A stretch of DNA of 64,000 bases from an uncultured Nitrospiraceae bacterium. GTDB taxonomy: Bacteria; Nitrospirota; Thermodesulfovibrionia; Thermodesulfovibrionales; SM23-35. This document shows positions 16,042 through 61,331 of this stretch, in pieces; within the stretch, counting starts at the first letter, position 1; every line of letters begins with the position of its first letter. The notes beneath the pieces are model-generated. The model did no database searches and was not told the DNA's origin. It saw only the letters and a list, made by a program, of their open reading frames with translations. A program made the position numbers and the translations under genes. Location of the stretch: the NCBI GenBank assembly GCA_937138415.1, contig CAKZPA010000034.1, positions 1 through 64,000 on the forward strand, read 5' to 3'.

Positions 16042-16096
16042 AGTCTAATAAGGCCGTGTTACGCCGACGTTACAATTGTGTGAACTTTTGATGAAA
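16042..16096 (-). promoter_or_regulatory. Pho-box-like promoter of the prsT operon
   Basis: On the minus strand four 5-bp half-sites lie at exact 11-bp spacing: TTTCA (16092-16096), GTTCA (16081-16085), TGTAA (16070-16074), CGTAA (16059-16063). After an 11-nt gap comes TAGACT (16042-16047) as -10. The prsT ATG is 94 nt further on. The same architecture occurs at five other promoters in the window. Confidence 0.65.
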
Positions 16097-16145
16097 ACCG
16101 ACTCGGCGTTCTCGCTCGCCTGGATGCAGTCTGATACGGGAACCC

Positions 16146-17789
16146 TTATGACGGGATTAATCCCCTCACCCCGGACACGATGAGTGTGACGAAGGTGACA
16201 GCGACCACGAGGTCCAGCTTCTCCCGCAGTTCCTTGATGAGTACTTCGCAACCGAACAGCAGAACCACGATCTCGACCGCCAGCCTGCCGAGTTGAAAGC
16301 TCTGAATCGAGCGATCCGGCAGATTTGGCACGACGACGGCGATGAACACGATGAGAAAGTCCATCGGCGTCGCTTTGAATCCCGTCTTCCTGCGCGAGTA
16401 CTTCACGACGAGAAACACGAGGAACGCAATCACGCCGTAAGAAGCGTGGTACGCCGATACGAGCTCGTTACGCATCCAAGCAGCCCTGCCTTGTTCGACG
16501 AGGTAGAGGAGCAACGGGATGGTGAGAAAGAGGATGCACCGAAGGCACAGCCCCAGATGGGCCCTCGCGAAGAGGCGCACGATGAGCAGCGCCGCGACGA
16601 AGAGGAGGGAGATGACGGCCGCGTATCCCGGAACGTGCGAAAGCTGCAGCGAGGACCACACGAGCACCGCGGGCACCGCGATCTTCGATAACGCGAACGA
16701 GAGACGAATGATCACGTTTCGATCTTTGATCTTCCTCAACGTTCCCTTCACGTTCGTATCGATGAGAGAAGATCGTTTGACGGTAAAGCCCGTCCGGTCC
16801 GCAACGGCAAATGACCCGATAACGGCGCCGGCGAAGAGGACATACGCCATGACGAGCATCCAGTCGCTGTGATACTTGAACAAAATGGCGGCGATGATCA
16901 TGGCCGCCTGGATGGCATAGATAATGAAGACCGCCTCGGTGTGATAGAGGCCGAAACGGACGAGGCGGTGGTGGAAGTGATTCGTGTCAGGAGAAAAAGG
17001 CGATCTCCCGGAACGGATCCGCTCGACCATAACGGTGAGCGTATCGAGCACCGGGAAACCGAGGATGAGGAGCGGCAAGACTGGGCTAAGTGGCGTACTG
17101 GCCTGGGTAACGCGGATCGCAAGGACGATAGCAGAAAAACCGAGGAGCTGGCTTCCCGTATCGCCCATGAACAGGGTGGCGGGATAGGTGTTATACCGGA
17201 GAAATCCGAAAATCGCACCGGCGAGCGCCAGCGAGAGGAAGAGAGCCGACGTGTCTCCCGTAAGATACGCGAGATAGCAGATACAGCAGAAACCGAGGAG
17301 AGATATTCCTCCCGCGAGGCCGTCCAGGCCATCGGACAAGTTGATCGCGTTCGTGACCCCGACGATCGCCACAATCGAAAGTGCGATGGCGAACCCCTCC
17401 GGTATCTCAAGGCAACAAGGGAGCAATCCCCCGAGAGAATCGATCCTCACCCCGCCGGGCACGACGACGATCACGGCCGCCGCGATCTGCCCGGCAAACT
17501 TCGCCTTGTACCCCAGCCCTCTCAGGTCGTCAAGCAGGCCGAAGATGACCAGAACGGCCGCCGCGATTAGATATGACCGCACGAAATCGTCGACCGATGT
17601 CCAGAGGACGATCGGGACGAATGCGCCGAGTGCCATGGCGAACCCGCCGATCCTCGGCACCGGACGCGTGTGGACCTTCCTCGGGTTCGGGACATCGACG
17701 AACTGGAAACGTTCCGCCAGCTTCGTCATCATCGGGATGAGGCTGACGGTGAGGAACACGGAGAGGAGAACCGTCGAGATGTAGAGCAT
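16146..17789 (-). CDS. WecA/MraY-type undecaprenyl-phosphate sugar-1-phosphate transferase
   Basis: 547 residues. The first 320 carry the polyprenyl-phosphate HexNAc/Hex-1-P transferase signatures: PRKVHTRPVPRIGG, FGLLDD, NAINLSDGLDGLAGG, FMGDTGS and HFHHRL. The protein initiates glycan assembly on the lipid carrier at the inner membrane. It continues for about 220 residues with six or more extra transmembrane helices, beyond the usual 350-residue family length. ATG 17789 was preferred over an upstream TTG; no clear ribosome site is visible. It is the last gene of the long glycan operon, after the exosortase gene. Confidence 0.88.
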   Translation of the reverse strand: MLYISTVLLSVFLTVSLIPMMTKLAERFQFVDVPNPRKVHTRPVPRIGGFAMALGAFVPIVLWTSVDDFVRSYLIAAAVLVIFGLLDDLRGLGYKAKFAGQIAAAVIVVVPGGVRIDSLGGLLPCCLEIPEGFAIALSIVAIVGVTNAINLSDGLDGLAGGISLLGFCCICYLAYLTGDTSALFLSLALAGAIFGFLRYNTYPATLFMGDTGSQLLGFSAIVLAIRVTQASTPLSPVLPLLILGFPVLDTLTVMVERIRSGRSPFSPDTNHFHHRLVRFGLYHTEAVFIIYAIQAAMIIAAILFKYHSDWMLVMAYVLFAGAVIGSFAVADRTGFTVKRSSLIDTNVKGTLRKIKDRNVIIRLSFALSKIAVPAVLVWSSLQLSHVPGYAAVISLLFVAALLIVRLFARAHLGLCLRCILFLTIPLLLYLVEQGRAAWMRNELVSAYHASYGVIAFLVFLVVKYSRRKTGFKATPMDFLIVFIAVVVPNLPDRSIQSFQLGRLAVEIVVLLFGCEVLIKELREKLDLVVAVTFVTLIVSGVRGLIPS

Positions 17790-17807
17790 GGGCAACGCGT
17801 GAATTGC

Positions 17808-19379
17808 CTACGCCTGCAGTTGCTTCTCTTTCAGAAACTGCAGCAAAACGGGCATCATATCGCGGACGAATCCGTCCATACGCCGTTCTGTGCTGTCGAT
17901 GGTTTCCGTCGGCGCGACCGGTGCGATGGGGCGGACGAACAGATCGTACGTGTTATCCCTCCGAAGGGCATGGAGAGATAAGTGGAACCGGTTGATGTTT
18001 TTATCGTGCGTCGTCATGTCTTTCGTCTGGAACCAGAAGTACACGATCTGGCGGCTTCCCATCCGTTCGATGACCATCCTCGTGACCATCAGAGAGCCGA
18101 AACGCTCGACGCCCTGTATCGTCTTCCTCGTTTCTTCCTCTACGACCCAGCCTGCAGACGGTATGCACACGGTCGGGCTATGGAAAAAATTCTCGTTCGA
18201 GAGGAAAGCCGTGCTCCTGTAGCCGATGTAGAGCGACACTTCGCCCCCTGTGCCGTCTCGGAAGACTCCGCTGAACGCCTCCTCCGCGCCGGACGCCCTT
18301 ATGATTTCCGGGTCTATGGTCTCCTGTCTCCCCGTCCACTGCCCGAACGACAGGGGGAAACTCTGGATACCGCCATCGAGTTTTACGGCGGGGAGGGCGC
18401 CCGTACTGAAACTGAGCGCCGCAATGAGAGAGAGCGCCGAGGCCGAGACGAGGAATGCTGCGGTTGTCCGGCCATGCCGCCTGCTCTGCTCGCCGTGCGC
18501 ACGAACCTCCTCGTGCGCACGGGCTGCACCGCTTGCTCGCACGGGGACGACGATGGAAAGCAGACGACCGAACAGGAAGAGGATCACGAAAGCCACGAGG
18601 AAGAGCAGCCATCCTGAAAATCCGTGGAAGAACCCTTCGGCGACGTCGCGCCCGACCTTATCGGTCAGGACCCCCGTGACCCCAATCCGCACGGCGTTGA
18701 TGACAACCCCTATTGGTATCGTGATGAACACGCAGAGGAGCCGCCTCCAGAGGTCCCGTTGAAAGTAGTACGCATAGAGGACACCGAGGGCAAGGAGGGG
18801 GAAGATATACCGGAGACCGCTACAGGCATCGATGACCTGGAGTTGGGTTACGCCGAGGTCGAGGACGTTGCCACTGATGTGAACAGGGATGTCGAACATG
18901 CTGATAAAAGAGCCCCCAAGTCTGGTCGAAACCGCCTTCAGGTGAAGGCTGACGTGCCTCTCGATGAAAGCGGGGACGGGCACCATGAAGAAGAGAAACC
19001 CGAGAGGGACGATGAGCAGCTTCAACGCCTCTACGCCGAAACAGAACAAGGTGATGAGCACGAGCAGCAAGGGGACGGACGGCATCGAGATGTTGCCGCT
19101 CGATCCGAGAATTCCGTAAAGAGAAAGGAGGAGGAAGAAGAGCACGGCAGGCAGAACCGGCCAGAAACTCCGCACCGGAACGCCGCTCAGATGCTTCCGC
19201 TTTTCCCACAGAAGGTATGCCGAGGCGAGGGGGATCAAGAAGCCGTAAGAGTAGTCGTCGTTATCGAGCCATATGTTCACCATAGATTTGAGTGGCACGA
19301 AATAAGCGGCGAAAAAGAGTATTGACAAGACGATTACCTGTACCCGCACATTTCCCATCGAACGTGTCAGCGTGTTCAT
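17808..19379 (-). CDS. xrtD: Exosortase fused to EpsI domain (XrtD type)
   Basis: 523 residues. The N-terminal 280 form a polytopic exosortase with the catalytic triad visible: Cys186 in DACSGLRY, Arg231 in NAVRIG and His252 in FFHGFSGW. After a basic linker, a second region (about 300-520) is EpsI-like, with IQSFPLSFGQWTG and SPTVCIPSAGW. Exosortases cleave and anchor proteins carrying a C-terminal sorting signal; this fused form is the kind that goes with VPLPA-CTERM substrates, which are found here at 57859, 56800 and 59314. Good ribosome site (gtgaggaccgc). Located between the radical SAM gene and the WecA-like gene. Confidence 0.9.
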   Translation of the reverse strand: MNTLTRSMGNVRVQVIVLSILFFAAYFVPLKSMVNIWLDNDDYSYGFLIPLASAYLLWEKRKHLSGVPVRSFWPVLPAVLFFLLLSLYGILGSSGNISMPSVPLLLVLITLFCFGVEALKLLIVPLGFLFFMVPVPAFIERHVSLHLKAVSTRLGGSFISMFDIPVHISGNVLDLGVTQLQVIDACSGLRYIFPLLALGVLYAYYFQRDLWRRLLCVFITIPIGVVINAVRIGVTGVLTDKVGRDVAEGFFHGFSGWLLFLVAFVILFLFGRLLSIVVPVRASGAARAHEEVRAHGEQSRRHGRTTAAFLVSASALSLIAALSFSTGALPAVKLDGGIQSFPLSFGQWTGRQETIDPEIIRASGAEEAFSGVFRDGTGGEVSLYIGYRSTAFLSNENFFHSPTVCIPSAGWVVEEETRKTIQGVERFGSLMVTRMVIERMGSRQIVYFWFQTKDMTTHDKNINRFHLSLHALRRDNTYDLFVRPIAPVAPTETIDSTERRMDGFVRDMMPVLLQFLKEKQLQA

Positions 19380-19386
19380 GCGGTCC

Positions 19387-20334: not shown

Positions 20335-20369
20335 CCGTCACCTCAAAACGCGGGATGATAGAAGGTCGC

Positions 20370-21476: not shown

Positions 21477-21501
21477 CTATCGTCTCCTCCGCTCCCTCGC
21501 G

Positions 21502-34824: not shown

Positions 34825-36405
34825 TCAAAAACGCGCGTTCAGATCGAGGAAGAACACGTCGATGGCGAGCGGCGGTCCGCCGATTTCATCGGCCGTCAAC
34901 CACCGCAACGAGAGCCAACAGTTCTTTAAGAGACCGATTTCCGACCCGATGATCCAGCCCTTCGCGTTCGTCCCGCCGAGGTGAAAGTCCGAGTCGGTAA
35001 ACGCATCGACGACGGCGTCTGCCTCGATGTACCTGTACTGGAGGTACGCCCTCCACGCTCCCCACCTGTCCACTTTCGCGTGCCCGACGGACAGGCCCAT
35101 CTGGTACCCGATCGTATCCTCCGGCTGCTCGGGATTACCCGTCCTCTCCGCGACGTCTGCCCTGTCGAAGCCGATGTTCTTCACGTAGTCGCCGAAGATG
35201 ACGATGTGGTAGGGGTCCCAGAATCCGACGTCGAGGCTCGCGGACAGAGCGACTTCCCGGAATTCCGCGGCGAGCGCCGTCTTGATGTCACCCGGGGTCG
35301 CGCTGATGTTGAAGAGGGTGTTCCCTTTCTGCTGGTACTGGGGAGCCGTCCAGTCGGTTTCGCCCGGCCTCAGGGGATCGTTGAGTCTGCCCGTGATGTT
35401 GCTGAAATGGTAATACGCCGCGCCCACGCCGAACGAGAGACCCTTGTCCTCCGCCCGGTCGATCCCCGCCTGCATCCCGACCATCCACTTGTCGCGCTTC
35501 GAGAATTCATAGCTGTCGAGCGGGAACGCGCCAGCGATGAAGAAAGGCGTCCACGATCTCCAAATGCGTTTCCTCACGTCCAGGGCGATCCCCTCGAAAT
35601 TGAGATCGTCGTCCCAGACGAGCGTGGTCGGCGAGAACCACGGGTTCGGGATCCGTCCGGCCGACAGGGTAAAGATGTCCCGATGCCATGCGAGGTAAGC
35701 CAAATCGATCACGACGTTGTCCTTGTTCAGATAGTCGCCGAGGAGTGTGTTCGTCGAGATGGGCGTATTGATGTTGCCGGAGGAGAGGAGGATGACGGCA
35801 TCTAACTGTTCGTTGACCTGAATCTGGGCACCGAAGCGGAGCCTGTATTTCAGCCGATCCTGATCGATCTTCGTGTTCATGAGTTCCGTCGGCTTCTCCG
35901 GTTTGAGAAAATCGGCGTTATTCTTGTCGAAGAGGTCTTTCTCGTATCTGAGGCGAATATCCCCGCGGAGCGTGATTCTCTTCGTCCACTCCGGCGCCGC
36001 AGCCTTCTCGATCGCCTTCGGAACCTCTTCTCCCATCTCCTTTCTCACCGTTTCCACGACCTGCTTTTTCTCCAACCCCGCCTGCTTCTCCGATGTCTCT
36101 ATGATGCGTTTGCCCTCGTCGGGACTGATCAGATTCTTCGCCTCGAGAAGGGAGACGAGTGCAGCGATCCCTTCATCCGGCGGCATCTTCGTTTCCTTCG
36201 TTTCCTTCGTTTCCTGCTTTCCCTTCTGTTTCAGGGAAACAGCCTGACCCATCGACGGTATCGGCGCGTGCTTGATGGTCACGGGCTGGCGAGGCGCGCT
36301 CGCACACCCGAGGAAAAAAGAGACCGTAACGACAACGATGACGGCGCATCCGTACCTCATTGCCCGTAAACGAGCAGACGATTCCGCGCTCTGAAGTCTA
36401 TTCAC
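34825..36405 (-). CDS. Putative porin, 526 residues
   Basis: The N-terminal signal FFLGCASAPRQP looks like a lipobox, which is unusual for a porin. It is followed by a Lys/Glu/Thr repeat (KETKETKE, from three 9-bp units at 36188-36214), a helical region (about 85-145) and a beta-barrel of about 350 residues (RITLRGDIRLRYEKD, LRFGAQIQVNEQLDAVI, AWRAYLQYRYIEAD) ending FLDLNARF. It resembles the putative-porin family with an N-terminal coiled coil. GTG 36405 has a weak ribosome site and lies 36 nt from a Pho-box promoter; ATG 36360 is an alternative start. Confidence 0.8.
   Translation of the reverse strand: MNRLQSAESSARLRAMRYGCAVIVVVTVSFFLGCASAPRQPVTIKHAPIPSMGQAVSLKQKGKQETKETKETKMPPDEGIAALVSLLEAKNLISPDEGKRIIETSEKQAGLEKKQVVETVRKEMGEEVPKAIEKAAAPEWTKRITLRGDIRLRYEKDLFDKNNADFLKPEKPTELMNTKIDQDRLKYRLRFGAQIQVNEQLDAVILLSSGNINTPISTNTLLGDYLNKDNVVIDLAYLAWHRDIFTLSAGRIPNPWFSPTTLVWDDDLNFEGIALDVRKRIWRSWTPFFIAGAFPLDSYEFSKRDKWMVGMQAGIDRAEDKGLSFGVGAAYYHFSNITGRLNDPLRPGETDWTAPQYQQKGNTLFNISATPGDIKTALAAEFREVALSASLDVGFWDPYHIVIFGDYVKNIGFDRADVAERTGNPEQPEDTIGYQMGLSVGHAKVDRWGAWRAYLQYRYIEADAVVDAFTDSDFHLGGTNAKGWIIGSEIGLLKNCWLSLRWLTADEIGGPPLAIDVFFLDLNARF
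36188..36214. repeat. 9-bp tandem repeat in the porin gene
   Basis: Three perfect copies of TTCGTTTCC, coding Lys-Glu-Thr repeats just after the signal region. Copy-number change would keep the frame. Confidence 0.85.
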
Positions 36406-36440: not shown

Positions 36441-36495
36441 ATAGTACGGGGGCACTATTACAGCAGTATTACAGTTCCATTGCAATTCGATGAAA
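36441..36495 (-). promoter_or_regulatory. Pho-box-like promoter of the porin operon
   Basis: Minus-strand half-sites at 11-bp period: TTTCA (36491-36495), TGCAA (36480-36484), TGTAA (36469-36473), TGTAA (36458-36462). After 11 nt comes the -10 TACTAT (36441-36446). The porin start is 36 nt downstream. Confidence 0.75.
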
Positions 36496-36646
36496 AAATG
36501 ATCGGCGCTTGCGCGCGTCGCCCGCGTTTTCCCGAAGCGTGAATCGAAACCGAGGCGACCGAATACCCGGCGTGCCGGTGGAACCGCGGAAGCACGTTAT
36601 GGCCTGGTCAGAGGAGTGTCGAAATTGCCCGGAGCATATCATCGAT

Positions 36647-38964: not shown

Positions 38965-39035
38965 CCTGATACCACCGCTAGAGGGGGGAAATGATTCCTC
39001 AATGGTATTTTCACCGCCTGCATGAAGACATTGGG

Positions 39036-39449: not shown

Positions 39450-41227
39450 GGTGTACCCCCCGCCTCTTCTTCGAACCGTCGGATGAAATCATCGAGGAAT
39501 AGATTCATGTCTGCGTTTACGTCCTTGATCTGGCTCGTAAGGTACGAACTGCCGAACAGTGACGGGATCGCCACGAGGAGGCCGCCCAGCGTGCACGAGA
39601 GGGCGGACGCGACACCGGGCGCGATCGCCGTGAGGCTCGCCTCGCCGCTCTCGGCCAAACTCGCGAATGTATTCATGACGCCCCACACCGTTCCCAAGAG
39701 ACCGAGGAACGGGCCACCCGAAATGCTCACATTCATGATCACGAGTCCCGCGGATAACTTGCGGCTCTCGACGATGGCAGCCTTTTCGATGGCTGACCGC
39801 ACCCCGTTCACGATGGCGTCCGAGACCTTCTTGCTCGCCCCGAACGCGTCGCCCTTCCGCTCCATGAGGAGCGCAAGCTCCTCGCATCCGGCACGGTAAA
39901 CGCGGTAGAGAGGAGACATCGGAAATTCTTCGTTCTGCTCGATCATGGAGAAGAGGTGTTCGCTGGAGCGGAATGACTGGGCAAACGTGCTGTTGGCCTT
40001 CTTCGACTCTCGGATCAGGGTGATCTTCCTCCCGAAGATGTACACCGCGGATGCCCCCATGATGAAGAGGACACCGATGATGATCCAGGCGTCGAGCGTG
40101 ATCGTGCGGATAACGACTTTCAAGAGTTCGATCGTGAGCGATTCGCCTCCCGAACCAGCCTCGGGCTCTCCGAGCGATGTCAGCAGACCATCTGGCCCCT
40201 GGCCCCGGTACAAGGCTCGAATCCATCCTAATGGCCGGACGATCGTGGACAGATGCAGCTCGTCAAGATCCCCCACAAAGCCGTCCGCCCCGCCGGCAGC
40301 CGAACCGATGAATATGTCCGATGAGGGCGACGGCGCGGGGCCCGTCAGAGGGCTTGACGCGACCTCGGTCCCATTGACGAAAAGGGAAATCTGACTCTGA
40401 GGATCAACCGTAACAGCGAGGTGATACCATATGTTCGGCACGAGCCCATCGGCTCCTTTTGCCATCACCGTCCGGCCCTTGCCGGAGTATACGCTGCCAT
40501 AGGGACGGGAATCAGCCAATCCGACAATGACGGACTGGGTCCCGTCATCCCACGAGAAAATGCAGGACGTACCCGACGGTTGGGTCAGGCGAATCCACGA
40601 CGCAAAGGTGAACCCCTTCGCAAAGTTCAACGACGAAGATCTGCCGACCTTCATATAGGACGCTCCATTGAACTGGACCCCTGATCCCGAGACGCTCGGA
40701 AGACCGAGCTTGCCGGTAAACACAATTCCGTGATTCGCGTAGGATGTCGAGTCCCTGGGACTCCCATCTTTTTCCGAGAAATGGAAGACGGCCACCTGGC
40801 TCACGTCGTACGTCCCCCCTGGATCCTGGCCATCCGGCGCAGTGGGGTTGCCATAGTACATCCACACGGCGTCCTGCGCGGAGCCTCCGCCAATCCGCGG
40901 AACTTTCACCCAGATGAGCGCGATATCCTCCGCCGGATCGAATTTCTCGATATGGAACTTCAGCGGCGACTTATCATCCAAGCTCACGAACCGGATATCG
41001 GACCCATCCTCCTTTGCGTCCGCGAAGCTAAAGTTTCCTCCGTGTAGGCGCACGAGAACGGGCACATCGGAGAGGGTATCCTTTACGTCAGCCCCCGCGG
41101 GGGACGCGTCGAACTGTACCTTCATCCTGTACTTCCATTTGCCGTCCCACCACGCGTCGGCATCCGGGAGGCAGAGGATGCCAAGAAAAAGAACAAGTGC
41201 CACCGCAACACAAACAGCTGTTCTCAT
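39446..41227 (-). CDS. DUF2341-LamG-MotA/TolQ/ExbB fusion protein
   Basis: 593 residues. Signal sequence (to ADAWW), a DUF2341 domain (about 28-130, WWDGKWKYRMKVQFDAS, ALIWVKVPRI, YYGNPTA), a concanavalin/LamG domain (about 145-330, NGASYMKVGRSSSLNF, FVGDLDELHLS), a membrane helix, then an ExbB/TolQ core (about 385-590; SGGPFLGLLGTVWGVMNTF, PGVASALSCTLGGLLVAIP). The ExbB part conducts protons at the inner membrane; the fused lectin-like part must lie in the periplasm. ATG 41227 begins the signal sequence; upstream starts are unsupported. Ninety nt after the TpsA gene. Confidence 0.88.
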   Translation of the reverse strand: MRTAVCVAVALVLFLGILCLPDADAWWDGKWKYRMKVQFDASPAGADVKDTLSDVPVLVRLHGGNFSFADAKEDGSDIRFVSLDDKSPLKFHIEKFDPAEDIALIWVKVPRIGGGSAQDAVWMYYGNPTAPDGQDPGGTYDVSQVAVFHFSEKDGSPRDSTSYANHGIVFTGKLGLPSVSGSGVQFNGASYMKVGRSSSLNFAKGFTFASWIRLTQPSGTSCIFSWDDGTQSVIVGLADSRPYGSVYSGKGRTVMAKGADGLVPNIWYHLAVTVDPQSQISLFVNGTEVASSPLTGPAPSPSSDIFIGSAAGGADGFVGDLDELHLSTIVRPLGWIRALYRGQGPDGLLTSLGEPEAGSGGESLTIELLKVVIRTITLDAWIIIGVLFIMGASAVYIFGRKITLIRESKKANSTFAQSFRSSEHLFSMIEQNEEFPMSPLYRVYRAGCEELALLMERKGDAFGASKKVSDAIVNGVRSAIEKAAIVESRKLSAGLVIMNVSISGGPFLGLLGTVWGVMNTFASLAESGEASLTAIAPGVASALSCTLGGLLVAIPSLFGSSYLTSQIKDVNADMNLFLDDFIRRFEEEAGGTP

Positions 41228-41317
41228 GGATAGTCGAGCGCTCCCTTCGAACTGTGTCGTTCCGGCGCATACGGATTTTCTTTTTGAAATCGATCTGCGT
41301 ACTCTCACCGCGTTCTG

Positions 41318-51972: not shown

Positions 51973-53565
51973 TTAGAACACCGTCTGCAGTTTGAAATGG
52001 GTCCTCCAGTCGCCTCCCTTGATCCTGCCCGTCGAGGCGAGGGCTACCGCGACGGCGAGTTCGTACTCGATATTCTTGAACATCGAACCCCTCAGTCCGA
52101 ACCCCGCGCCCTGGAGCGTGACACTCCGGTCCTGCTCCGGCAGAGGCTCGTAAATCGTGAGTTTCGCGACATCGTAGAAGACGTACGGCGTGAGGTGGAG
52201 CCACGCGACGAGGCCGGATGCCTCCACCGGGTCCGGGAACGATATCTCGACGGTCAGGTGAGCGGCGTTGTCGCCGAGAGCCTCGCTCTCCTTGTAACCC
52301 CGAACGCTCTCCATTCCTCCGGCCGGGTACTGCTCGTTGTTGACGAGTGGGCCGTCCGCGATCTGCGCGGACGCCTTCACGAGCAGGCCCATATCGAGAG
52401 GCAGTTTCTGCGTGCGCTGGACGCCGAGCGTAGCGAACAGATAGTTCGCGTCCGCCTTGTACCGCTTGAGTTCGAACTCGGACTGTCTCGAGACGAGCCC
52501 GCGTATCGAAAGGTTGAGTCCGCCGTTGAACTGGGTGACGCCGCCCCACATGTCGGGGAGCGACGCGTTGTACGAGAGGCTGAAAGGGAGATACGAGACG
52601 GGCGTCCTCGTTGTCTCGCCGCCTTCCCCCGCGAAACCGACGTCTTCCCGGAAATGCTTGTAGTCGACTCCCACCGTTAAGGTGTGATTGTAGAGTCGGT
52701 GCGGCGGCAGAGGGACGACATAGCGCAGACCGAATATCTCGCCGCTCCCGACAACGGTGAACCCCTCGCCAAACGCCGTGTCGCTGTCCGTCCATATACC
52801 GTAGAGAGCCACGAGGTGGTCGTCCGACCAGGGCGATGGGAGGACGTAGGAGAGGCCGATCACCTGCACCTCCGAGAAAGCCTGCGGAGACGTCTGGTAC
52901 TGGAGCGCGATGGAATGTTCTTTCTGCCAGAGGTTGTCGTAGCGGATCATCGAGTTCAGCCTCAGCTCGGTCGTATCGTGGCTGGACCTGTTGTTCAGCT
53001 CCACGTACCCGTGGAGGGGCAACCTATCCTCGACCTTCAGTTCCACGTCGATCGTTCCCACCTCTTTCCCGGGCGAGATGACCGGCTCGACCTTGATGTC
53101 CTGGCTCCGGTTCAGGCGTCCGATCTCCTCCTGCACCTTCGGGAGGTAGAGCATGCCTCCCGGCGTGAAGGATGGCAATTTCGCCATCACCTTTTCCATC
53201 GTGAAGTAGCGGTTGCCGGTGATCTTCACATTCCCGATCCTGCTCTCGATCACTTGGAGTTTGATGATGTTGTCCGTGAGGGTCTGTTCCGGTATGTTCA
53301 CCATCACGGTGGGGTACCCCGCTTCATGGTAGAGCTTTTCGAGGGCGTCCCGCGCCTGTTCGACGTCGGTGGCCGTCTTGCCAGAACCCGTGAACGGCAT
53401 GACGACGTGCTGGAGCCTTTCCGTACTGAAGAGCGTGTTGCCCGTTATCTCGAACCCGCGGATATCGAAGCCGACGTCCGCGGAGCCGTCGCCGCCGAAA
53501 GATACCCCTACAGGGGCAGAGAGCATCAACAGGACGAGGACCGACACACAACGAATCGCCTTCAT
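51973..53565 (-). CDS. TpsB outer-membrane transporter (ShlB/FhaC family)
   Basis: 530 residues. Signal peptide, POTRA domains (about 28-180: FDIRGFEITGNTLF, VIESRIGNVKITGNRYF), then a 16-stranded barrel with YVELNNRSSHDTTELRLNSMIRYDN and AGGMESVRGYKESEALG, the VRGY loop that plugs the pore. It secretes the TpsA protein encoded downstream. Ribosome site gaggagcag lies at the end of the preceding FKBP gene, 3 nt between stop and ATG. The 179 bases down to the TpsA start are empty. Confidence 0.93.
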   Translation of the reverse strand: MKAIRCVSVLVLLMLSAPVGVSFGGDGSADVGFDIRGFEITGNTLFSTERLQHVVMPFTGSGKTATDVEQARDALEKLYHEAGYPTVMVNIPEQTLTDNIIKLQVIESRIGNVKITGNRYFTMEKVMAKLPSFTPGGMLYLPKVQEEIGRLNRSQDIKVEPVISPGKEVGTIDVELKVEDRLPLHGYVELNNRSSHDTTELRLNSMIRYDNLWQKEHSIALQYQTSPQAFSEVQVIGLSYVLPSPWSDDHLVALYGIWTDSDTAFGEGFTVVGSGEIFGLRYVVPLPPHRLYNHTLTVGVDYKHFREDVGFAGEGGETTRTPVSYLPFSLSYNASLPDMWGGVTQFNGGLNLSIRGLVSRQSEFELKRYKADANYLFATLGVQRTQKLPLDMGLLVKASAQIADGPLVNNEQYPAGGMESVRGYKESEALGDNAAHLTVEISFPDPVEASGLVAWLHLTPYVFYDVAKLTIYEPLPEQDRSVTLQGAGFGLRGSMFKNIEYELAVAVALASTGRIKGGDWRTHFKLQTVF

Positions 53566-53568: not shown

Positions 53569-54465
53569 TTACTGCTCCTCCTCCGCAGGCACCTCGGTCC
53601 CTGCTTCTTCCGACTCGCTGACGGCAATGACCTGGATGTCGCAGATCAGTTCCTCGTAGCCGAAGGGGTGTCGGTAGTCGATGACGATGACCCTGTCGTC
53701 CACCTTCGTGATGCGGCCGATCTTGTTGCCCGTGCGGACGAGCGTCCCTTCTTTCGCGTCTATGTCCACCTTGTACCTGTCCGCTTCTTCGCGGACGCGG
53801 CCCGTGCCGAAAGGCGTCTCGATCGTATCCCCGCGCTTCGAGAAGGCGATGGTCACGTCCGTTTCGGTCACGGAGGTCACCCGTCCGGGGAATGCCGGAT
53901 CGTAGGAGTACTCCTGCCCAACCTCCGGTGCCTTCCGGGCGCGGAACTCGTAGTCGCCCTTCGGCATCGTCATCTCCTTCGGACGCGTCCGGACCCGCGA
54001 GAGGTACGCGAAGCCCTCCTGTTCGTTCTTCGGCATCACCATCGAGGCCGAGAGGTTCACGCGCTGCGTTTCTCCTTCCTTCATGCCGGTGACCTGGCGC
54101 GCCAGCCGGTGCTCAATTTCCAGCTCGAAGGGGCCGGGATAGAGCTGTTCCGGGTATGGATCGTCCGGAGCCACCGCACCAAGTGACACAGCGCCCGACC
54201 GCTTCCCCGGCGCGAAAACCGGAGATTTCCGCTCTGCATCCGCGACCGCGCCTGTCGATGCGACCACCTCGCCGGTTTTCAGGCGGCACAGGTAATCGAG
54301 CGTCGCGACGTCCCCCGGCTCCACCATCCGCGCGTCCCGGGTTCGAACGTCGCCGGCGGAAGGAGCCTTTTCGACAGCGCCGAGGGAAAGATTCGTCGAG
54401 ACGACGAGGATTGCCAGGAACGCGAAGAGGCCCGAGCACTTCGCTCGTGCGCGGAAACTACGCAT
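53569..54465 (-). CDS. SlyD-like FKBP peptidylprolyl isomerase, exported
   Basis: 298 residues. Signal peptide (about 1-30), then an FKBP/SlyD fold: VEPGDVATLDYLCRLKTGEVVAST, a long insert with VTGMKEGETQRVN, and the closing strands DYRHPFGYEELICDIQVIAV that match the SlyD DFNHPLAG block. A central part appears duplicated or expanded relative to the roughly 190-residue family length. It is probably a periplasmic folding helper for the TpsA-TpsB pair encoded downstream. It overlaps the DUF2292-like gene by 8 nt. Confidence 0.75.
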   Translation of the reverse strand: MRSFRARAKCSGLFAFLAILVVSTNLSLGAVEKAPSAGDVRTRDARMVEPGDVATLDYLCRLKTGEVVASTGAVADAERKSPVFAPGKRSGAVSLGAVAPDDPYPEQLYPGPFELEIEHRLARQVTGMKEGETQRVNLSASMVMPKNEQEGFAYLSRVRTRPKEMTMPKGDYEFRARKAPEVGQEYSYDPAFPGRVTSVTETDVTIAFSKRGDTIETPFGTGRVREEADRYKVDIDAKEGTLVRTGNKIGRITKVDDRVIVIDYRHPFGYEELICDIQVIAVSESEEAGTEVPAEEEQ

Positions 54466-54709: not shown

Positions 54710-54764
54710 ATGTTAGAGCAGATTTATTACAGGAGTATTACACGAATGTTTCGAATGGATGAAA
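54710..54764 (-). promoter_or_regulatory. Pho-box-like promoter of the TPS/Ton operon
   Basis: Minus-strand half-sites at 11-bp period: TTTCA (54760-54764), CGAAA (54749-54753, weak), TGTAA (54738-54742), TGTAA (54727-54731), 11-nt gap, -10 TAACAT (54710-54715). Confidence 0.7.
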
Positions 54765-55018
54765 TGATGACGTCATCTCCGTGCGCGGGGAAGTGAATTC
54801 GACGGCATTGTCACTCCGATCAACTCTTTGCGATGTCTCCCCTCTGTCATGCCGGGACGCGATCCGGCATCCAAGGACGTAGCGACGGCAGTTTTTTGCG
54901 CCGTGTTGTCAGTGCGAGGTGTCCCGCATTCCGCGGGCGACGAAGCACTATCCGCCGTGGGGATGGGATTGCCGCGCTCCCTCCGGTCGATCGCAATGAC
55001 ACGATATCTCAAACGGAG

Positions 55019-55568: not shown

Positions 55569-56774
55569 CTACGGACAGGCGACTCCCGTCCACTGAAGGG
55601 GGAACGCGTCGCACGGCCTCGCCCTCTCGTAGACCATCTTGCACTTCGCGACCCAGAGGGGGTTCGCGATGTTCGCGGGGTTCTTCGCGAACGCGCAGAG
55701 CGGGCTTCCGTCCGTGATGCCGTAGAGATGCTGGAGACTGTAGAAGTTGTAGTTCCCGCCCGCGATGGCGCCGGCGCTCGCCACGACGCCGTTGAGGGCT
55801 ATTTGGGTGGTGTTCGGATACGACGTCAGGATCTGGTCGGCGTCGGCGTAGCCGATCGCGCCCGCGCCGCTCCATGAGCCTGAGCCGTTCACGCACCTCA
55901 TCATGTCGGTAGATCCGTCATTGAAGTAGTACTTGTAGGTGCTGGCCGAGTCTTGAACGGTGATCATCGGGCTCTCCAGATAGCCGTCGATCGCCGCCTG
56001 GGTGCCGGATCCGGCGTGCCTCATGCAGACGGCGATGGGCTTTGCGTCATACGACGTGCCGTCGCTGTCGACCATGTCGGACCAGTCCTGGATCTGCCCC
56101 GAGAAGATGAGTTCCGCGTTGTCCTTGGTGATGTTCGTGATGGTGTTGCCGAGCTTTGTGACGGATTTGTTCACGAAGAAGGCGAACGGCACCGCCATCG
56201 GCTTACAGGGCTCGGCGCCGGTCCAACTGATCGGGTTCGTCTTGAAGTTCCTGTCCGTCCAGCTGCCGCCGAGGGGCCCTCTCAGGTTGCCGTGGGATTC
56301 CTGCGTGAAGCACTGGACCGGCACGTCGGAGGCGCCGACCGTCACGTTCATGCACCTTGTCGCCGAGCACTGCCCGGTGGCCCAGTTGCACGTCGCCTCG
56401 TCGATCATCCTCCGCTGGAAGGGCGACGTACACTCGGTGACGCGGAAGGGGTTCGTGGTGTTGCCCTGGATGGCGAGGATGCCGTCGTAGGAGGCCTTTG
56501 CAGAGGTGCGGAAATACCTGACCGTGCCGCCGCAGGTGCCCCTGGTGATCGCGTTCCTCCCGTCCGGCGCGCCGCCGACATAGAGCTGCGCCGACGCGAT
56601 GTCCGTGCAGCCCTGTGATGCCATGAATGCGGCGGCGTTGTCCCTCCACACGATGAACTGGGCCGACGCGCCGTAGACGTTGATGTCCGAGGTGATCTGC
56701 GCCGACGACGTCCCGGCGACGGCGAAGAGGGCGAGGGCGGCGACGGCCACCATGATAATGTTCTTGAATTTCAT
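55569..56774 (-). CDS. Cysteine-rich PstS-like substrate-binding protein
   Basis: 401 residues. Signal peptide (to TSSAQ), then a type-2 periplasmic-binding fold like phosphate-binding PstS: INVYGASAQF at the N-terminus, AVPFAFFVNKSVT, NAELIFSGQIQDWSDM, CMRHAGSGTQAAIDGYL and GAGAIGYADAD. About 14 cysteines, rare for PstS, suggest a disulphide-stabilised exported protein. No pstC, pstA or pstB genes are present, so ABC import is not supported here; phosphate or another anion may be captured at the surface. Good ribosome site (aaaggagac). Downstream of a CTERM gene in one operon, with a strong terminator after it. Confidence 0.75.
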   Translation of the reverse strand: MKFKNIIMVAVAALALFAVAGTSSAQITSDINVYGASAQFIVWRDNAAAFMASQGCTDIASAQLYVGGAPDGRNAITRGTCGGTVRYFRTSAKASYDGILAIQGNTTNPFRVTECTSPFQRRMIDEATCNWATGQCSATRCMNVTVGASDVPVQCFTQESHGNLRGPLGGSWTDRNFKTNPISWTGAEPCKPMAVPFAFFVNKSVTKLGNTITNITKDNAELIFSGQIQDWSDMVDSDGTSYDAKPIAVCMRHAGSGTQAAIDGYLESPMITVQDSASTYKYYFNDGSTDMMRCVNGSGSWSGAGAIGYADADQILTSYPNTTQIALNGVVASAGAIAGGNYNFYSLQHLYGITDGSPLCAFAKNPANIANPLWVAKCKMVYERARPCDAFPLQWTGVACP

Positions 56775-56799
56775 CTCGATAGTCTCCTTTCCGTGATTG

Positions 56800-57558: not shown

Positions 57559-57858
57559 CTTCTTTCTCTCCTTTCATTGTTCATTAGTTTCTTTTCCCTC
57601 CCTCAGTCAGTCCGGCCGCGCGGTGCACACCCAAAAGCGCCGGATGTATGCTGAAGGCAGATTGCCGTTGCTACCGGCTTCATCCCATTGTCGCGTAACG
57701 GATACCCTGTTTCCCTATCACCCCCTTTTCCCTTCGGATTTTTTTGAGCGTTCCCGGCACTCTGCGCACAACCCTCTCTCGTCCGGAAAGCTCGCACTGC
57801 AGGTTCCCTGGTACCCGAAACGGGTCAGCCAAATCCCTGTGAAAACGCGCATCCATGG
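57559..57858 (-). other. Leader A upstream of the VPIPA-CTERM gene
   Basis: 300 bases without a supported gene or a Pho box. Its 5' part (about 57795-57850) shares GGGATTTGGCTGACCC and ACCAG-GAACCTGC with leader B (58985-59045), upstream of the other CTERM gene. The shared block could be read as HRDLADPF, but the two frames diverge afterwards. Confidence 0.5.
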
Positions 57859-58680
57859 CTACGACCCCTTCCTCCTCAGGCCGAGCAGGCCGATCAGCCC
57901 CGAACCGAGGAGCCATGCCGTCGCCGGGAGGGGGACGGCGGAAGCGGCGTCGGTGATTTCATACCGCCCGGCTATCGCTCCGCCGGAGGTGGGGATGCCG
58001 GTAATGTTTGCGACCTTCGTTTGCGTTAAGGACGCCGTGTCGATGCGGTAGAGCTCGAAGTGGTTGTTCCCCGCCCTGCGGACGCCGTAGAGGGTTCCGC
58101 CGTCGAACCCGAGCCCGACGTAACGGTTCAGCGCCGCTTGCGTGTAGCTGAGCGTCGCCATGTCGAACTTTAGGAGGGCGTTATCGTAGGAGAGATATCC
58201 CATACCGCCGCTCACCGCGAGGTCCCCCATCGCGCTCATCGCGCTCAGGAACGGGACACACGAAACCGTCTGGGTTCCCGGCGCCCCGAAGATAGTGCCG
58301 ACCGTGACGAGGTCGCCCGTGTGCCGGTCGACGAAATAGAATGTGTCGCCCGCCGCGTCGCCGTTCGCGATGTTGTACGGATCGGCCGCGGGGATCGTCG
58401 TGAGGGCCGTTCCGTTCCGGTAGAGCGTGTCGGGTCCCCGAACGTTGAAATTGGTGAAGAAATACACCCCCCCGCTCACCCCCAGCCCGTTCGGGGAATA
58501 CTGCTCCTGCCTCGATCCGCCCGGGTCCGGGAACTTCACGGCGAGGCGCGCCTCTCCGGTGGCGGTATCGAGGGTGAATACGCTCCCGTCTTCGCCCAGC
58601 AGGGAAATGAATCCGGCGTGCGCGGTGCCCGCCGGCAGGAAGAGCACCGACAAGAGGGCGAGGCAGAACATTTTCTTCAT
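57859..58680 (-). CDS. Exosortase-sorted protein with VPLPA-CTERM tail
   Basis: 273 residues. Signal peptide (to AHA), then a domain with repeating beta motifs (GEDGSVFTLDTATGEARLAVKF, FYFVDRHTGDLVTVGTIFG) resembling beta-propeller blades, and the tail AVPLPATAWLLGSGLIGLLGLRRK, the canonical VPLPA-CTERM signal. ATG 58680 was preferred to ATG 58686 because aggag lies six bases before it. Function of the exposed domain unknown. Confidence 0.87.
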   Translation of the reverse strand: MKKMFCLALLSVLFLPAGTAHAGFISLLGEDGSVFTLDTATGEARLAVKFPDPGGSRQEQYSPNGLGVSGGVYFFTNFNVRGPDTLYRNGTALTTIPAADPYNIANGDAAGDTFYFVDRHTGDLVTVGTIFGAPGTQTVSCVPFLSAMSAMGDLAVSGGMGYLSYDNALLKFDMATLSYTQAALNRYVGLGFDGGTLYGVRRAGNNHFELYRIDTASLTQTKVANITGIPTSGGAIAGRYEITDAASAVPLPATAWLLGSGLIGLLGLRRKGS

Positions 58681-58763
58681 GCGCATCTCCTTTTACGGGG
58701 GCAGGCATTTTCCCCTTTCTCCTCATTGCCTGCCACCTTTCTCACCTGATGTGTTCCCCATTC

Positions 58764-58848
58764 CCTCAGGCAACCCGTCCATCCCCTGTTTTTCCGGGAT
58801 ACGTCGGCTTTCCGTCGCCCGGTTTCCCGGGCTTTGGCTTTCTTCTGA
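58764..58848 (-). promoter_or_regulatory. GEMM-I-like (cyclic-dinucleotide) riboswitch candidate, degenerate
   Basis: Minus strand reads CAAA-GCCCGG-GAAA-CCGGGC-GACGGAAAGCC and later GGATGGACGGGTTGCC. This follows the c-di-GMP-I layout (CAAA, hairpin closed by a GAAA tetraloop, GACGCAAAGCC, GGGTTGCCGA) with the hairpin pairs preserved. Deviations: one base in GACGCAAAGCC, one in the 3' block, and the guanine that contacts the ligand appears to be a C. About 85-170 nt before the CTERM start. Confidence 0.35.
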
Positions 58849-58984
58849 AGGCCGGATGCGGGCTCGCGCCGCACCCTCCTCATCCTCTTCTATGCGTTTC
58901 CCTCCGCATCACCTCCCTCGCCCCGAAAAGTTTTCTTCGAGCCTGCCGATTCCTTCCCGCTTCGGTTTCTCCGGATGATCAGCA

Positions 58985-59045
58985 CGCCCATGGGCAGGTT
59001 CGCTGGTGCCGCGCGAATGGGTCAGCCAAATCCCTGTGTAAAGAA
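58985..59045 (-). repeat. Leader element shared by two CTERM genes (copy B)
   Basis: CACAGGGATTTGGCTGACCC, then CACCAGCGAACCTGC; copy A is at 57795-57850. Each lies 240-360 nt upstream of a CTERM start codon on the minus strand. Confidence 0.6.
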
Positions 59046-59047
59046 AT

Positions 59048-59078
59048 AGCCCGAACCGAGATCGACTCGGTTCGGGCT
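59048..59078. terminator. Strong 13-bp hairpin, bidirectional terminator or attenuator
   Basis: AGCCCGAACCGAG-ATCGA-CTCGGTTCGGGCT, perfect 13-bp stem with 5-nt loop. T-rich sequence follows on both strands (TTTCT on plus, ATTTCTTT on minus). It lies about 130 nt after the Pho-box promoter at 59210-59264 within the CTERM leader. Confidence 0.7.
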
Positions 59079-59209
59079 TTCTGGTGCCTCAGCGGCGTCC
59101 GCCGCCGGTCAGCAAAGTACCCTTACGTTCACCCGAAAAGCGCGGACATCCGTCCGCACTTTCCACATCTGTTCATCGCGTTAGAAGGGGTGTTCGTTGC
59201 TTCCCCGTT

Positions 59210-59264
59210 ACTCTACCAACTGAATGCTACATTTTTATGAAAGCAGAATTACAAATCGATGAAA
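59210..59264 (-). promoter_or_regulatory. Pho-box-like promoter before the VPLPA-CTERM leader
   Basis: Minus-strand half-sites at 11-bp period: TTTCA (59260-59264), TGTAA (59249-59253), TTTCA (59238-59242), TGTAG (59227-59231), 11-nt gap, -10 TAGAGT (59210-59215). It would give a leader of about 520 nt before ATG 58680. Confidence 0.6.
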
Positions 59265-59313
59265 TTTTTCGTGCCGAAAAAATTCTTCCAATCGACGATC
59301 GCGGATTGAGACT

Positions 59314-60051
59314 TTATCCCCGAGGCGCGCGGCCACTCTGCCGCCTCCGGTATCTGAGCGCGATCGACGCGGCGAGCCCTGAGCCGAAGAGCCACGCCGC
59401 GCCCGGAATGGGGATCGGCACAACGCCGGCCGATATCTGGACCTTGCTCCTATCCTCAGGCCGAAACCGCCCGCCGGCTTCGTTCAGTACGATCTTTCCG
59501 CTCATCTCGAAGCCGCCGCTCAAATCGTATCCCCCGAGATACCAGGTGAGCGTGCCCGAACTCGCTGGCAGTGACCGGAAACTGCCGAGAGATTCGCCGT
59601 TCAAAACGACATCTTCGAGAGCGACCGATATGCCGGCGGCCTGGGTCTCGATCATAATCTTGATCGTATTCAGGTTATTCAGCAGATCAGGGTTCGCAAA
59701 CCGTGAAGAGACACCGTCGAATGTGACGGTGCGGGATCCCGATACCGGGCTCACGACTGTCGTCGTCAGCCGGTCTTCCCCGGGAAGGTAGGTGAAGAAA
59801 AAGGTGTTCGCACTCTCGCCATAGCTCCACTGTTTTACGTGCCCGGCGGAACGGTCTCTTCCCCTGAGAAGATCGCCGTAACCGAGCCATATCTCCTTCT
59901 GTCCCGAAGGGTTGCCGAAGGAGTGGTAACGAACAGAGAAATACTCCGGGTTCATGGTGTCCTGCGGTCCCTCGTTTGCGAGAGAGGCCAGTGCGGTGTC
60001 AGCAGACAACGCCATAAGTGCGATCGCGATGGCCATCGATATCTTTTTCAT
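59314..60051 (-). CDS. Exosortase-sorted protein with IPIPG-type CTERM tail
   Basis: 245 residues. Signal peptide (to ALA), then a beta-sandwich-like domain (EIWLGYGDLLRG, FFFTYLPGEDRLTTTV, LTWYLGGYDLSGG) and the tail VPIPIPGAAWLFGSGLAASIALRYRRR, a variant of the VPLPA sorting signal with a helix and an Arg-rich end. Ribosome site ggagagatcgggggg. Downstream of the DUF2292-like copy 2 and probably under its Pho-box promoter. Confidence 0.83.
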   Translation of the reverse strand: MKKISMAIAIALMALSADTALASLANEGPQDTMNPEYFSVRYHSFGNPSGQKEIWLGYGDLLRGRDRSAGHVKQWSYGESANTFFFTYLPGEDRLTTTVVSPVSGSRTVTFDGVSSRFANPDLLNNLNTIKIMIETQAAGISVALEDVVLNGESLGSFRSLPASSGTLTWYLGGYDLSGGFEMSGKIVLNEAGGRFRPEDRSKVQISAGVVPIPIPGAAWLFGSGLAASIALRYRRRQSGRAPRG

Positions 60052-60094
60052 CGTCCCCCCGATCTCTCCTTTGAGTAGGCGTAGCGAGATGCGC

Positions 60095-60292: not shown

Positions 60293-60345
60293 GGGTGCAG
60301 TGAGAACAATGCGTGCCGGCCGCTGCAACCGAACGGATAGAATAA

Positions 60346-60400
60346 AGTATAAAAATTCAGTATTACATCCGCATGACAGGAATGTTACGAAACGATTAAA
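60346..60400 (-). promoter_or_regulatory. Pho-box-like promoter of the DUF2292-CTERM operon
   Basis: Minus-strand half-sites at 11-bp period: TTTAA (60396-60400), CGTAA (60385-60389), TGTCA (60374-60378), TGTAA (60363-60367), 11-nt gap, -10 TATACT (60346-60351, five of six consensus bases). Confidence 0.75.
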
Positions 60401-60413
60401 TTTGCGCCGCGCC

Positions 60414-61127
60414 TCAGCCCGTGGAGATGTTCTGCTCGAAGTAGTAACCGATGCCCCTCAGTGTTTTGATGTACTTCGGTCGGGCAGGATTGCTCTCCAG
60501 AGCGGTTCGCAGCCTCCGGATGTGGACATCGACTTTACGTTGTTCGACGGCGTCATCGTCGTTCCAGACGGCGTCGAGGAGCTGACTCCTCGTGATCACC
60601 TTCCCCTTCCGCTCGGCGAGGTAGAGGAGGATTTTGAACTCCGTCGACGTCAACTGGACCGGCCGTCCCCTCAACATGACCTTGTACCGTTCCGTGTCTA
60701 TCTCGAGTTCCCCGAACGTGAGGGTCGTGCTGGGCGGTTTCCTGTTCGACCGCCTGAGGAGGGCCTTGATCCTCGCAATGAGTTCGCGGGGGCTGAACGG
60801 TTTCGTGACGTAATCGTCTGCTCCCATTTCGAGTCCGATCACCCGATCGATCTCTTCTCCTTTGGCCGTCAGCATGATGATCGGCACCGTTGCCGTCCTC
60901 GGGTCTTCCCGCAGCATGCGGCAGAATTCGATCCCCTGAATCCCGGGGAGCATCAGATCGAGCGAAACGAGATCGTAGTGCTTGCTCCTCAGCATCACGA
61001 GGGCGGATTCGGCGTCCGGTGCGGCGTCGACCGCGAACCCCTCTTTCATCAGATGATAAGAGACGAGTTCGACGATATCGGGCTCGTCGTCGATGACGAG
61101 AATCTGTTTCGCACAATCCTGGGACAT
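60414..61127 (-). CDS. phoB: PhoB-like OmpR-family response regulator
   Basis: 237 residues. Receiver domain with acidic pocket (VIDDEPD), phospho-acceptor Asp57 in SLDLML, Thr87 and Lys109 (DDYVTKPF); winged-helix DNA-binding domain with LTSTEFKILLYLAERKGKVITRSQLLDAVW and VDVHIRRLRTALE, very close to PhoB. No sensor kinase (PhoR) is adjacent, so it is an orphan in this window. ATG start without an evident ribosome site. Its promoter carries its own four-site Pho-box array, implying autoregulation. It is the likely regulator of the other five arrays. Confidence 0.85.
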   Translation of the reverse strand: MSQDCAKQILVIDDEPDIVELVSYHLMKEGFAVDAAPDAESALVMLRSKHYDLVSLDLMLPGIQGIEFCRMLREDPRTATVPIIMLTAKGEEIDRVIGLEMGADDYVTKPFSPRELIARIKALLRRSNRKPPSTTLTFGELEIDTERYKVMLRGRPVQLTSTEFKILLYLAERKGKVITRSQLLDAVWNDDDAVEQRKVDVHIRRLRTALESNPARPKYIKTLRGIGYYFEQNISTG

Positions 61128-61276
61128 ATGGACAAGTGGTCGACGTTCCGAAACGGGGGCTACCGCAGCGCCACTAACGATGCTTCGCTTTCCATCGGCA
61201 CCGATGCCGGCGACCGCCCTCCGCGAGCGGTGGGTGAGCTTTGCGTTAGAACGCGCGTCCTGCCACCGCTCCGTTA

Positions 61277-61331
61277 TTTAGACCATAAAGATGTTAAGAA
61301 TGCGTTACAGGATCATGACAGAGAGATTAAA
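61277..61331 (-). promoter_or_regulatory. Pho-box-like promoter of the phoB-like gene
   Basis: Minus-strand half-sites at 11-bp period: TTTAA (61327-61331), TGTCA (61316-61320), TGTAA (61305-61309), CTTAA (61294-61298), 11-nt gap, -10 TCTAAA (61277-61282). The start codon is 150 nt further on. Confidence 0.65.

Follow-up and report, generated by a model that had tools for sequence, protein, structure and literature searches.

Phosphorylated PhoB is generally known to bind its operators and to recruit sigma-70 RNA polymerase at low phosphate, thereby taking the place of the -35 box, and the pstS promoter of Escherichia coli shows the corresponding layout of four repeats. The Pho box is described as 7-bp direct repeats at an 11-bp period located before pst genes (PMC4415409), and E. 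coli phoB is listed among the regulators that carry a Pho box upstream of their own gene (PMC3465305). Other studies connect similar inputs to bacterial surfaces: riboswitches for cyclic di-GMP (c-di-GMP) beside PEP-CTERM/VPLPA-CTERM genes in exopolysaccharide (EPS) regions have already been reported (PMC12530212), in Desulfovibrio vulgaris the PEP-CTERM genes are given as targets of DVUA0057 while PhoB targets pst and HD/EAL genes (PMC3333781), and in Pseudomonas fluorescens phosphate and c-di-GMP jointly set the surface adhesin LapA (PMC3032545). Here, we describe a stretch of 64,000 nucleotides from an uncultured Nitrospiraceae bacterium (contig CAKZPA010000034.1, positions 1 to 64,000; hereafter the window, part of contig C34), which contains seven arrays of PhoB-type half-sites around a PhoB-like gene and a large surface locus. 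The arrays are very probably PhoB-type operators of one regulon that reaches from pst to the surface locus, and the transcript for PEP-CTERM and PstS-like proteins appears to be further gated by leader RNAs.

The arrays of the window resemble the pstS-type Pho box of E. coli in the 7-bp repeats, the 11-bp period and the pst targets, whereas they differ in their half-sites, which are TGTMAY/TTTMAT-like, and in a regulon that takes in an EPS, two-partner secretion (TPS) and Ton surface locus. Direct reading of the sequence reproduced the coordinates and strand of the six minus-strand arrays that a preliminary description had listed (Table 1). Each comprises four half-sites at 11-bp steps and a -10 hexamer, with 4 nt between successive half-sites and 10 nt from the last of them to the hexamer; the gap of 10 nt is counted from the 7-mer half-site and equals the 11 nt that were given before from a 5-mer, and on the latter count a hexamer with four or five matches to TATAAT (4, 4, 4, 4, 5 and 4 positions, respectively) indeed follows each array. 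In sequence, the arrays correspond to a Pho box operator, with 7-bp direct repeats at an 11-bp period over the -35 region and the -10 element about 10-11 nt downstream. As had also been claimed, all six are located before gene starts, at 36-524 nt between hexamer and open reading frame (ORF), and array 6 sits before the orphan phoB-like gene itself. The set of six stood but was incomplete: the plus strand carries another array at 61389-61444, which is divergent to the phoB-like gene and has a small Cys-rich ORF behind it, and both this seventh array and the leader RNAs had been overlooked. When the window was ranked with a half-site score that had been built independently of the six sites (a TGTMAT-like motif in four copies, 11-bp steps, maximum 24), the top sites were exactly the six arrays with 22-23 of 24, and 20 third-order Markov shuffles averaged 0.1 sites per strand at a score of 20 and 0.0 at 21 or above. 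In a leave-one-out analysis the six sites took ranks 10, 5, 6, 6, 6 and 8 among 127,922 positions, where the other five sites and 11-bp-shifted registers can outrank the one left out.

The complete genome (2.11 Mb, 57 contigs) was then scanned with two models, R1 as a sequence-only model of the six sites and R2 as a model of 14 of the 15 sites found by R1, omitting 61277, which the MAFFT alignment had moved by one period. R1 returned 15 matches at E <= 10, the six arrays plus nine others, and none elsewhere. Four of the nine are on C34 within approximately 6.5 kb of the phoB-like gene, namely array 7 and three arrays at 65.2-67.5 kb, 1.2-3.5 kb past the window end. Three more are on C11 at 1.77, 2.33 and 2.48 kb, which is 0.05-0.8 kb upstream of pstS (ATG 2558), and two on C10, the contig with phoBR, to which R2 adds C10:23766 as a third. 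Gene names on the pst contig follow TIGR00972 for pstB, and TIGR02136, TIGR02138 and TIGR02135 for PstS, PstC and PhoU over the NCBIfam cut-offs; C10 also encodes a divergent PHO4-type phosphate transporter with a PhoU_div protein as well as a PHP-domain protein. Four in-register half-sites are present in eight of the nine additional sites and thus in 14 of all 15, one of which (C34:67491) can be read by eye as six, while C11:2327 has a poor first half-site and is laid out with three. The same type of site therefore precedes the pst and pho genes of this genome, as in a Pho box, and the earlier expectation that a matrix of the six sites would find such genes came true with the nine sites near the phoB-like gene, pstS and phoBR. 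The regulon had been described as a local one of EPS export, porin, TPS/Ton and CTERM genes; these targets hold, but the regulon extends beyond the locus to pst and the phoBR contig. Beside some arrays, HMA_2-type and InsA-like zinc-ribbon small proteins were noticed (C34 65.2-65.6 kb, L041 1811-2143, L185 17649-18367), with family matches for the L185 examples and assignment by resemblance for those on C34 and L041.

Decoy matrices gave a consistent picture. A 40-column matrix built from the six sites was run on 129,335 bases that the own genome has beyond the window and produced 11 hits of at least 14 bits at 8 distinct arrays, register shifts being counted separately, compared to a mean of 0.37 and a maximum of 3 hits for 60 column-shuffled decoys; random DNA is hence not matched at the same rate, which the preliminary description had named as the outcome that would overturn its proposal. 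A 14-site matrix found 35 sites of at least 13 bits, 34 of them outside long ORFs, in 229,158 bases of the corresponding surface-locus contigs of four other genomes (see below), where 50 decoys reached a mean of 1.08 and a maximum of 3. With the half-site blocks alone and a threshold of 11, the 11-bp period gave 35 hits, and periods of 10, 12, 9 and 13 gave 3, 3, 9 and 1. The R2 matches of the own genome are AT-rich (GC 0.25-0.44 in a window of 58% GC), which would suit an origin as chance matches or as an artefact of AT-rich intergenic DNA; the probability of such an origin is negligible, because Markov shuffles, column-shuffled decoys and period controls ruled out chance, a wrong period and AT-richness, in line with the previous statement that the arrays are hard to explain by chance.

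Similar arrays occur in relatives. At E <= 0.5, R2 has at least one match in all 41 genomes searched (the own and 40 others), many of them weak, and many strong matches are on contigs with phoB or pst genes. We inspected 102 arrays, 101 of them outside the own genome, in stretches picked mostly around strong R2 matches. An ORF of at least 50 aa is found within 450 nt of 100 arrays, and at 64 it matches a labelled reference: PstS (28), PHP (12), C10-type porin (7), PstC (5), Porin_5 (3), PhoB (2), kinase (2) and others (5), where neighbouring arrays can share one gene and some PstS matches are just 20-30% identical. Among 17 R2 hits in other genomes that end before the -10 columns, 12 match TATAAT at four or more positions at one offset, whereas each of the 16 remaining offsets between -8 and +8 gave 0-5 such hits; relative to the own sites, this best offset is shifted outwards by one base, which makes the gap there 11 nt. 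In 34 kb of E. coli DNA around pst and phoA-phoR, the pstS promoter was the sole match below E 0.1 (0.0024 with R1; 0.027 with R2, in a shifted register). Direct-repeat geometry is general among sites of OmpR-family regulators, and further members of this family are encoded on C24 and C3, so one might assign the arrays to a different OmpR/PhoB-family regulator whose 11-bp repeat is similar, the link to pst being incidental. Such an assignment is very improbable, since these models find sites at pstS, pstC, porin, PHP and phoB genes of relatives as well as at the pstS promoter of E. coli. Another recurrent feature is the presence of small ORFs with at least four Cys, 33 of which were seen at 24 of the 102 arrays (L193, L194, L201, L205, L212, L219, L224 and others); some are probably chance frames, others belong to recurrent types, e.g. 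CPY..CxASLSSM..CPIFLSKVLR, and three representatives had no match in Pfam (E <= 0.1) or NCBIfam (E <= 0.01).

The PhoB-like protein of the window has its best match with TIGR02154 and contains receiver and winged-helix domains. Judged from its sequence, its gene is an orphan paralogue, a second copy beside the phoB-kinase pair on C10: no PhoR-like kinase gene was found in the 1500 nt downstream, and the kinase adjacent to the C10 copy scores over NF046044 PnpS (405.3, cut-off 400) and under TIGR02966 PhoR (284.7, cut-off 334.2). The receiver aspartate is kept, and the motif VDVHIRRLR of the recognition helix is identical in the window protein, C10 PhoB and E. coli PhoB; the residue just before it is K in the window protein and T in the other two. 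In the PhoB tree the window copy is on a long branch and groups firmly neither with the kinase-less copies of two other genomes, G035 and G031 (AU p 0.056), which also have an upstream array, nor with C10 PhoB (AU p 0.178). A PhoB-like gene is also present on the surface-locus contig of G092, a genome of another class (C21:4400-5077), with a weak array match upstream at 3860.

These features raise the question whether the surface locus has the orphan protein, rather than the kinase-linked PhoB, as its dedicated activator, responding to some signal that is not phosphate. The missing kinase neighbour, the long branch, the K residue in place of T, the gene on the G092 contig and the kinase-less copies with upstream arrays in G035 and G031 would all fit. 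However, VDVHIRRLR and the array sequences are the same as at pst, which implies that both PhoB proteins should share sites; moreover, the tandem phoB pair of G035 is on a different contig from the surface genes examined, and the tree joins the orphan firmly neither to the other orphans nor to C10 PhoB. We therefore regard a dedicated, phosphate-independent activator as unlikely and prefer a PhoB regulon in which one or both paralogues act on the same arrays.

The surface locus itself was traced with the FKBP-like protein as marker in 395 genomes sampled from the phylum (E <= 1e-8), which the best named PhoB relatives among the matches listed and the PhoB tree indicate to be Nitrospirota. The marker was found in five, the own genome (G000), G035 and G367 from other families of the same order, G369 from another order and G092, and in all five the homologues of the VPLPA-CTERM protein CT56800, the PstS-like protein, TPS-B and TPS-A stand beside the FKBP-like gene in conserved order, forming what we call the superlocus. 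The ExbB-ExbD-TonB, porin and EPS export genes are present in four of the five, and the exosortase with its GT4 neighbour in three; the G367 contig ends after TPS-A, that of G369 starts close to the export genes, and G035 carries its porin, EPS and exosortase genes on another, second contig. An array is located upstream of the PEP-CTERM/PstS-like operon in all five genomes and upstream of the FKBP-like/TPS operon also in all five, that of G369 being weak with R2 (14.0 bits) and reaching 27.2 in the 40-column matrix. In the window, the ShlB/POTRA_2 transporter adjoins the TPS-domain exoprotein, as is characteristic of two-partner secretion, and the series of FKBP-like, TPS-B and giant TPS-A genes runs on into ExbB-ExbD-TonB. 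The exosortase gene is upstream of array 1 and not downstream of any array. The RHAGSGT motif is kept in all five PstS-like homologues; an AlphaFold prediction from five sequences had a mean pLDDT of 43.8 and was not used. It was also observed that the DUF2341/LamG-ExbB fusion is kept with TPS and TonB in the superlocus.

Table 1. Arrays, genes and RNA elements of the window.
Feature	Position	Strand	Remarks
Polysaccharide export protein	13070..13762	-	PF02563
PrsT-like TPR protein	13960..15948	-	TIGR02917 304 bits, cut-off 312.2
Pho array 1	16042..16097	-	four half-sites at 11 bp, -10 TAGACT; precedes PrsT/EPS export genes
Exosortase, nearest XrtD (VPLPA-CTERM-specific)	17808..19379	-	over cut-off of PF09721; TIGR04152 387.5 bits, under cut-off 400
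UpxY-family gene (NusG paralogue)	32548-33051		NF033644 110.1 bits, cut-off 100
Porin_5 porin	34825..36405	-	in-frame ATG at 36360
Pho array 2	36441..36496	-	-10 TACTAT; precedes Porin_5 gene
TonB-like	38260..39039	-	
ExbD/TolR-type protein	39036..39449	-	PF02472
ExbB/TolQ-type channel fused to DUF2341 and LamG domains	39446..41308	-	
Giant TPS-A exoprotein, 3493 aa	41318..51799	-	TPS domain, DUF3739
TPS-B transporter	51973..53565	-	ShlB/POTRA_2
FKBP-like protein, superlocus marker	53569..54465	-	NF011676 far under cut-off, no Pfam match
Pho array 3	54710..54765	-	-10 TAACAT; precedes FKBP-like, TPS-B and giant TPS-A genes
PstS-like protein	55569..56774	-	PF12849; TIGR02136 45.9 bits, under cut-off 206.6; pair profile matches PDB PstS
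VPLPA-CTERM protein CT56800	56800..57558	-	TIGR03370 26.6 bits, cut-off 25.35
Leader RNA element copy 3	57797..57842	-	precedes CT56800
PEP/VPLPA-CTERM-like protein	57859..58686	-	PF07589 20.4 vs 20.7; TIGR03370 24.4 vs 25.35
c-di-GMP-I riboswitch aptamer	58766..58848	-	RF01051, 55.3 bits, gathering 35
Leader RNA element copy 2	58992..59039	-	no terminator found
Intrinsic terminator	59040..59078	-	5' arm overlaps P1 3' strand of element copy 1
Leader RNA element copy 1 (model R3)	59070..59126	-	terminator follows
Pho array 4	59210..59265	-	-10 TAGAGT; precedes leader RNAs and PEP-CTERM/PstS-like operon
Exosortase-target-like surface protein	59314..60051	-	choice_anch_W 25.1 bits, cut-off 45
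Pho array 5	60346..60401	-	-10 TATACT; precedes gene 59314-60051
Orphan PhoB-like response regulator, 237 aa	60414..61127	-	TIGR02154 273.4 bits, cut-off 296.2; Response_reg and Trans_reg_C
Pho array 6	61277..61332	-	-10 TCTAAA; precedes orphan phoB-like gene
Pho array 7	61389..61444	+	-10 TACAAT; divergent, precedes small Cys-rich ORF
Small Cys-rich ORF after array 7	61558..61752	+	in-frame ATG also upstream at 61507

The leader of the PEP-CTERM/PstS-like operon carries, in this order, the Pho array at 59210, a tandem RNA element, a c-di-GMP-I aptamer and the PEP-CTERM gene. The aptamer scores over the Rfam gathering threshold in all five superlocus genomes; its distance to the likely start codon downstream is 35-39 nt in G035, G367 and G369 and longer in G092 and G000. 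The 3' strand CCTGAG of the G035 and G369 aptamers is, by eye, complementary to CTCAGG before the start, from which we predict that c-di-GMP opens this site. In G369 (L231 7182-7260, minus) and G367 (L232 8730-8808, minus), additional c-di-GMP-I-GGC aptamers were observed between the PstS-like and FKBP-like genes, on the opposite strand. The tandem RNA element has the helices P1 (GGGU/GCCC) and P2 (CUGACC/GGnnnCAG), and an independent RNAalifold run recovered nine of the 11 proposed pairs. No family of Rfam 15 matches it at the gathering score in the leaders of the five genomes, and for the window leader a search at E <= 5 gave, besides c-di-GMP-I, just miRNA, lncRNA and two bacterial sRNA models far under their thresholds. 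A covariance model of the element, R3, has 21 matches at E <= 1 within the five superlocus genomes, and at E <= 0.001 across the 395 genomes it detected only the five with the FKBP-like marker, using stricter filters and a model trained on these same five. A same-strand Pho array, in some cases weak, is present within approximately 350 nt upstream of 16 of the 21 copies; the others are 57797, G035 C97:24534, G035 C2:40494, G092 45135 and G035 C2:44, the last at a contig edge. The G035 C97 copy precedes a second DUF2341-ExbB-type gene, named by homology to the window protein. A short leader ORF near the array and the RNA element was also noticed by eye in L298, L231, L232 and L230 (MEKLAKI..MIK..KKFTGxIKINF.RGTV.KVEKFEEILKK); that of L298 had no significant match in Pfam or NCBIfam.

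An intrinsic terminator was detected by script after 12 of 20 copies of the element (C2:44 left out), and the G369 copy at 9831 shows one by eye. In nine of these 12 the P1 3' strand GCCC is located wholly within the 5' arm of the terminator, and the other three read ACCC and were unscored. This overlap suggests an attenuator logic, in which the formation of P1 should prevent termination. Alternatively, the element might be the target of a NusG paralogue of the UpxY/RfaH type for processive antitermination instead of a ligand-sensing riboswitch: an UpxY-family gene is encoded in the window and has a homologue in the G092 superlocus, and the element often precedes terminators and was seen only in genomes with the locus. 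Among the contigs examined, some of which end before that region, UpxY was found only in G000 and G092, however, and the overlap of P1 and terminator also fits a riboswitch, which makes the UpxY target a somewhat doubtful assignment. Our own, tentative proposal is that this leader RNA (GGGUnCUUnGCUGACC ... ACCAGAAAGCCC), in many copies fused to a terminator in which its P1 strand is used again, might be a new class of regulatory RNA, either a riboswitch or a protein-bound antiterminator, and that it would form, together with the PhoB promoter and the c-di-GMP riboswitch, a gate with three inputs on a conserved surface system for phosphate scavenging with exosortase, two-partner secretion and Ton components.

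Several observations weigh against this overall interpretation of a PhoB regulon with RNA-gated surface genes. With 279.3 bits, C10 PhoB is also under the TIGR02154 cut-off of 296.2, so that the name of both PhoB-like proteins rests on best match, gene context and targets; of 14 control genomes, 12 had a match to this family and two exceeded the cut-off. No labelled ORF was found at 38 of the 102 arrays in relatives, R2 was partly trained on sites found by R1, and the stretches were picked mostly around strong R2 hits. The E. coli control is weak, with the pstS E-values given above and with no R1 or R2 match reported at phoA or phoB within those 34 kb. For the EPS export genes, an array is present in three of the four genomes in which the region is covered, G000 (before PrsT), G035 (33751) and G369 (1463), and not in G092. 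A conserved porin array had been expected and failed, because it was seen in two of four genomes (G000, G035) and none in G092 and G369, where TonB precedes the porin gene; in the examined DNA of G367 a porin gene was not found. Finally, covariation of the RNA element is slight, with double changes in two of 11 pairs and pair types not above shuffles, and three folded copies without terminator were not unusually stable.

Regarding the mechanism, four half-sites at 11-bp steps would suffice for two tandem PhoB dimers, and PhoB may stand in for the -35 box at sigma-70-type promoters, with the -10 element starting 10 nt past the last half-site. Both the action of PhoB at these sites, binding as well as activation, and the direction in which each RNA switch works are inferred from the sequence. 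Phosphorylated PhoB and/or the orphan paralogue would activate pst, porins, the PHP-domain enzyme and the surface locus with exosortase, EPS, two-partner secretion and Ton functions. The PEP-CTERM/PstS-like transcript would then meet the tandem RNA element, whose first copy can compete with the intrinsic terminator, such that read-through past the attenuator may occur only when its signal is present, and the c-di-GMP-I aptamer would probably control translation thereafter. In this scheme transcription would be set by phosphate starvation, and whether the surface proteins are made would depend on c-di-GMP and the second signal. The products would include the PstS-like protein, PEP-CTERM proteins, TPS exoproteins and porins, which would probably serve to capture phosphate and to build a matrix.

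In this regard the locus differs from the systems described before. The pairing of a c-di-GMP riboswitch with PEP-CTERM genes is by itself not new, given the report in PMC12530212; here the aptamer is located downstream of a Pho array and of a further conserved RNA element in five genomes. As in D. vulgaris, a response regulator would stand over PEP-CTERM genes, whereas the promoters are of PhoB type here and the PEP-CTERM genes are not named under PhoB in the accessible part of PMC3333781. The control of LapA in P. fluorescens, as described in PMC3032545, acts via a phosphodiesterase and the loss of the adhesin from the surface, while here it would act via one promoter and its leader RNA. At the level of titles and abstracts, we found no publication on PEP-CTERM or exosortase genes under PhoB and none on a c-di-GMP riboswitch combined with a Pho regulon.

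Collectively, our data point to a precise promoter code that would tie phosphate starvation to an EPS/PEP-CTERM and two-partner secretion surface system, with the prediction that the same transcript reads c-di-GMP and one further signal. The locus offers promoters that can be tested and a short RNA in which the terminator switch is defined, and it gives a reason to look for phosphate-dependent formation of matrix or aggregates in these bacteria.

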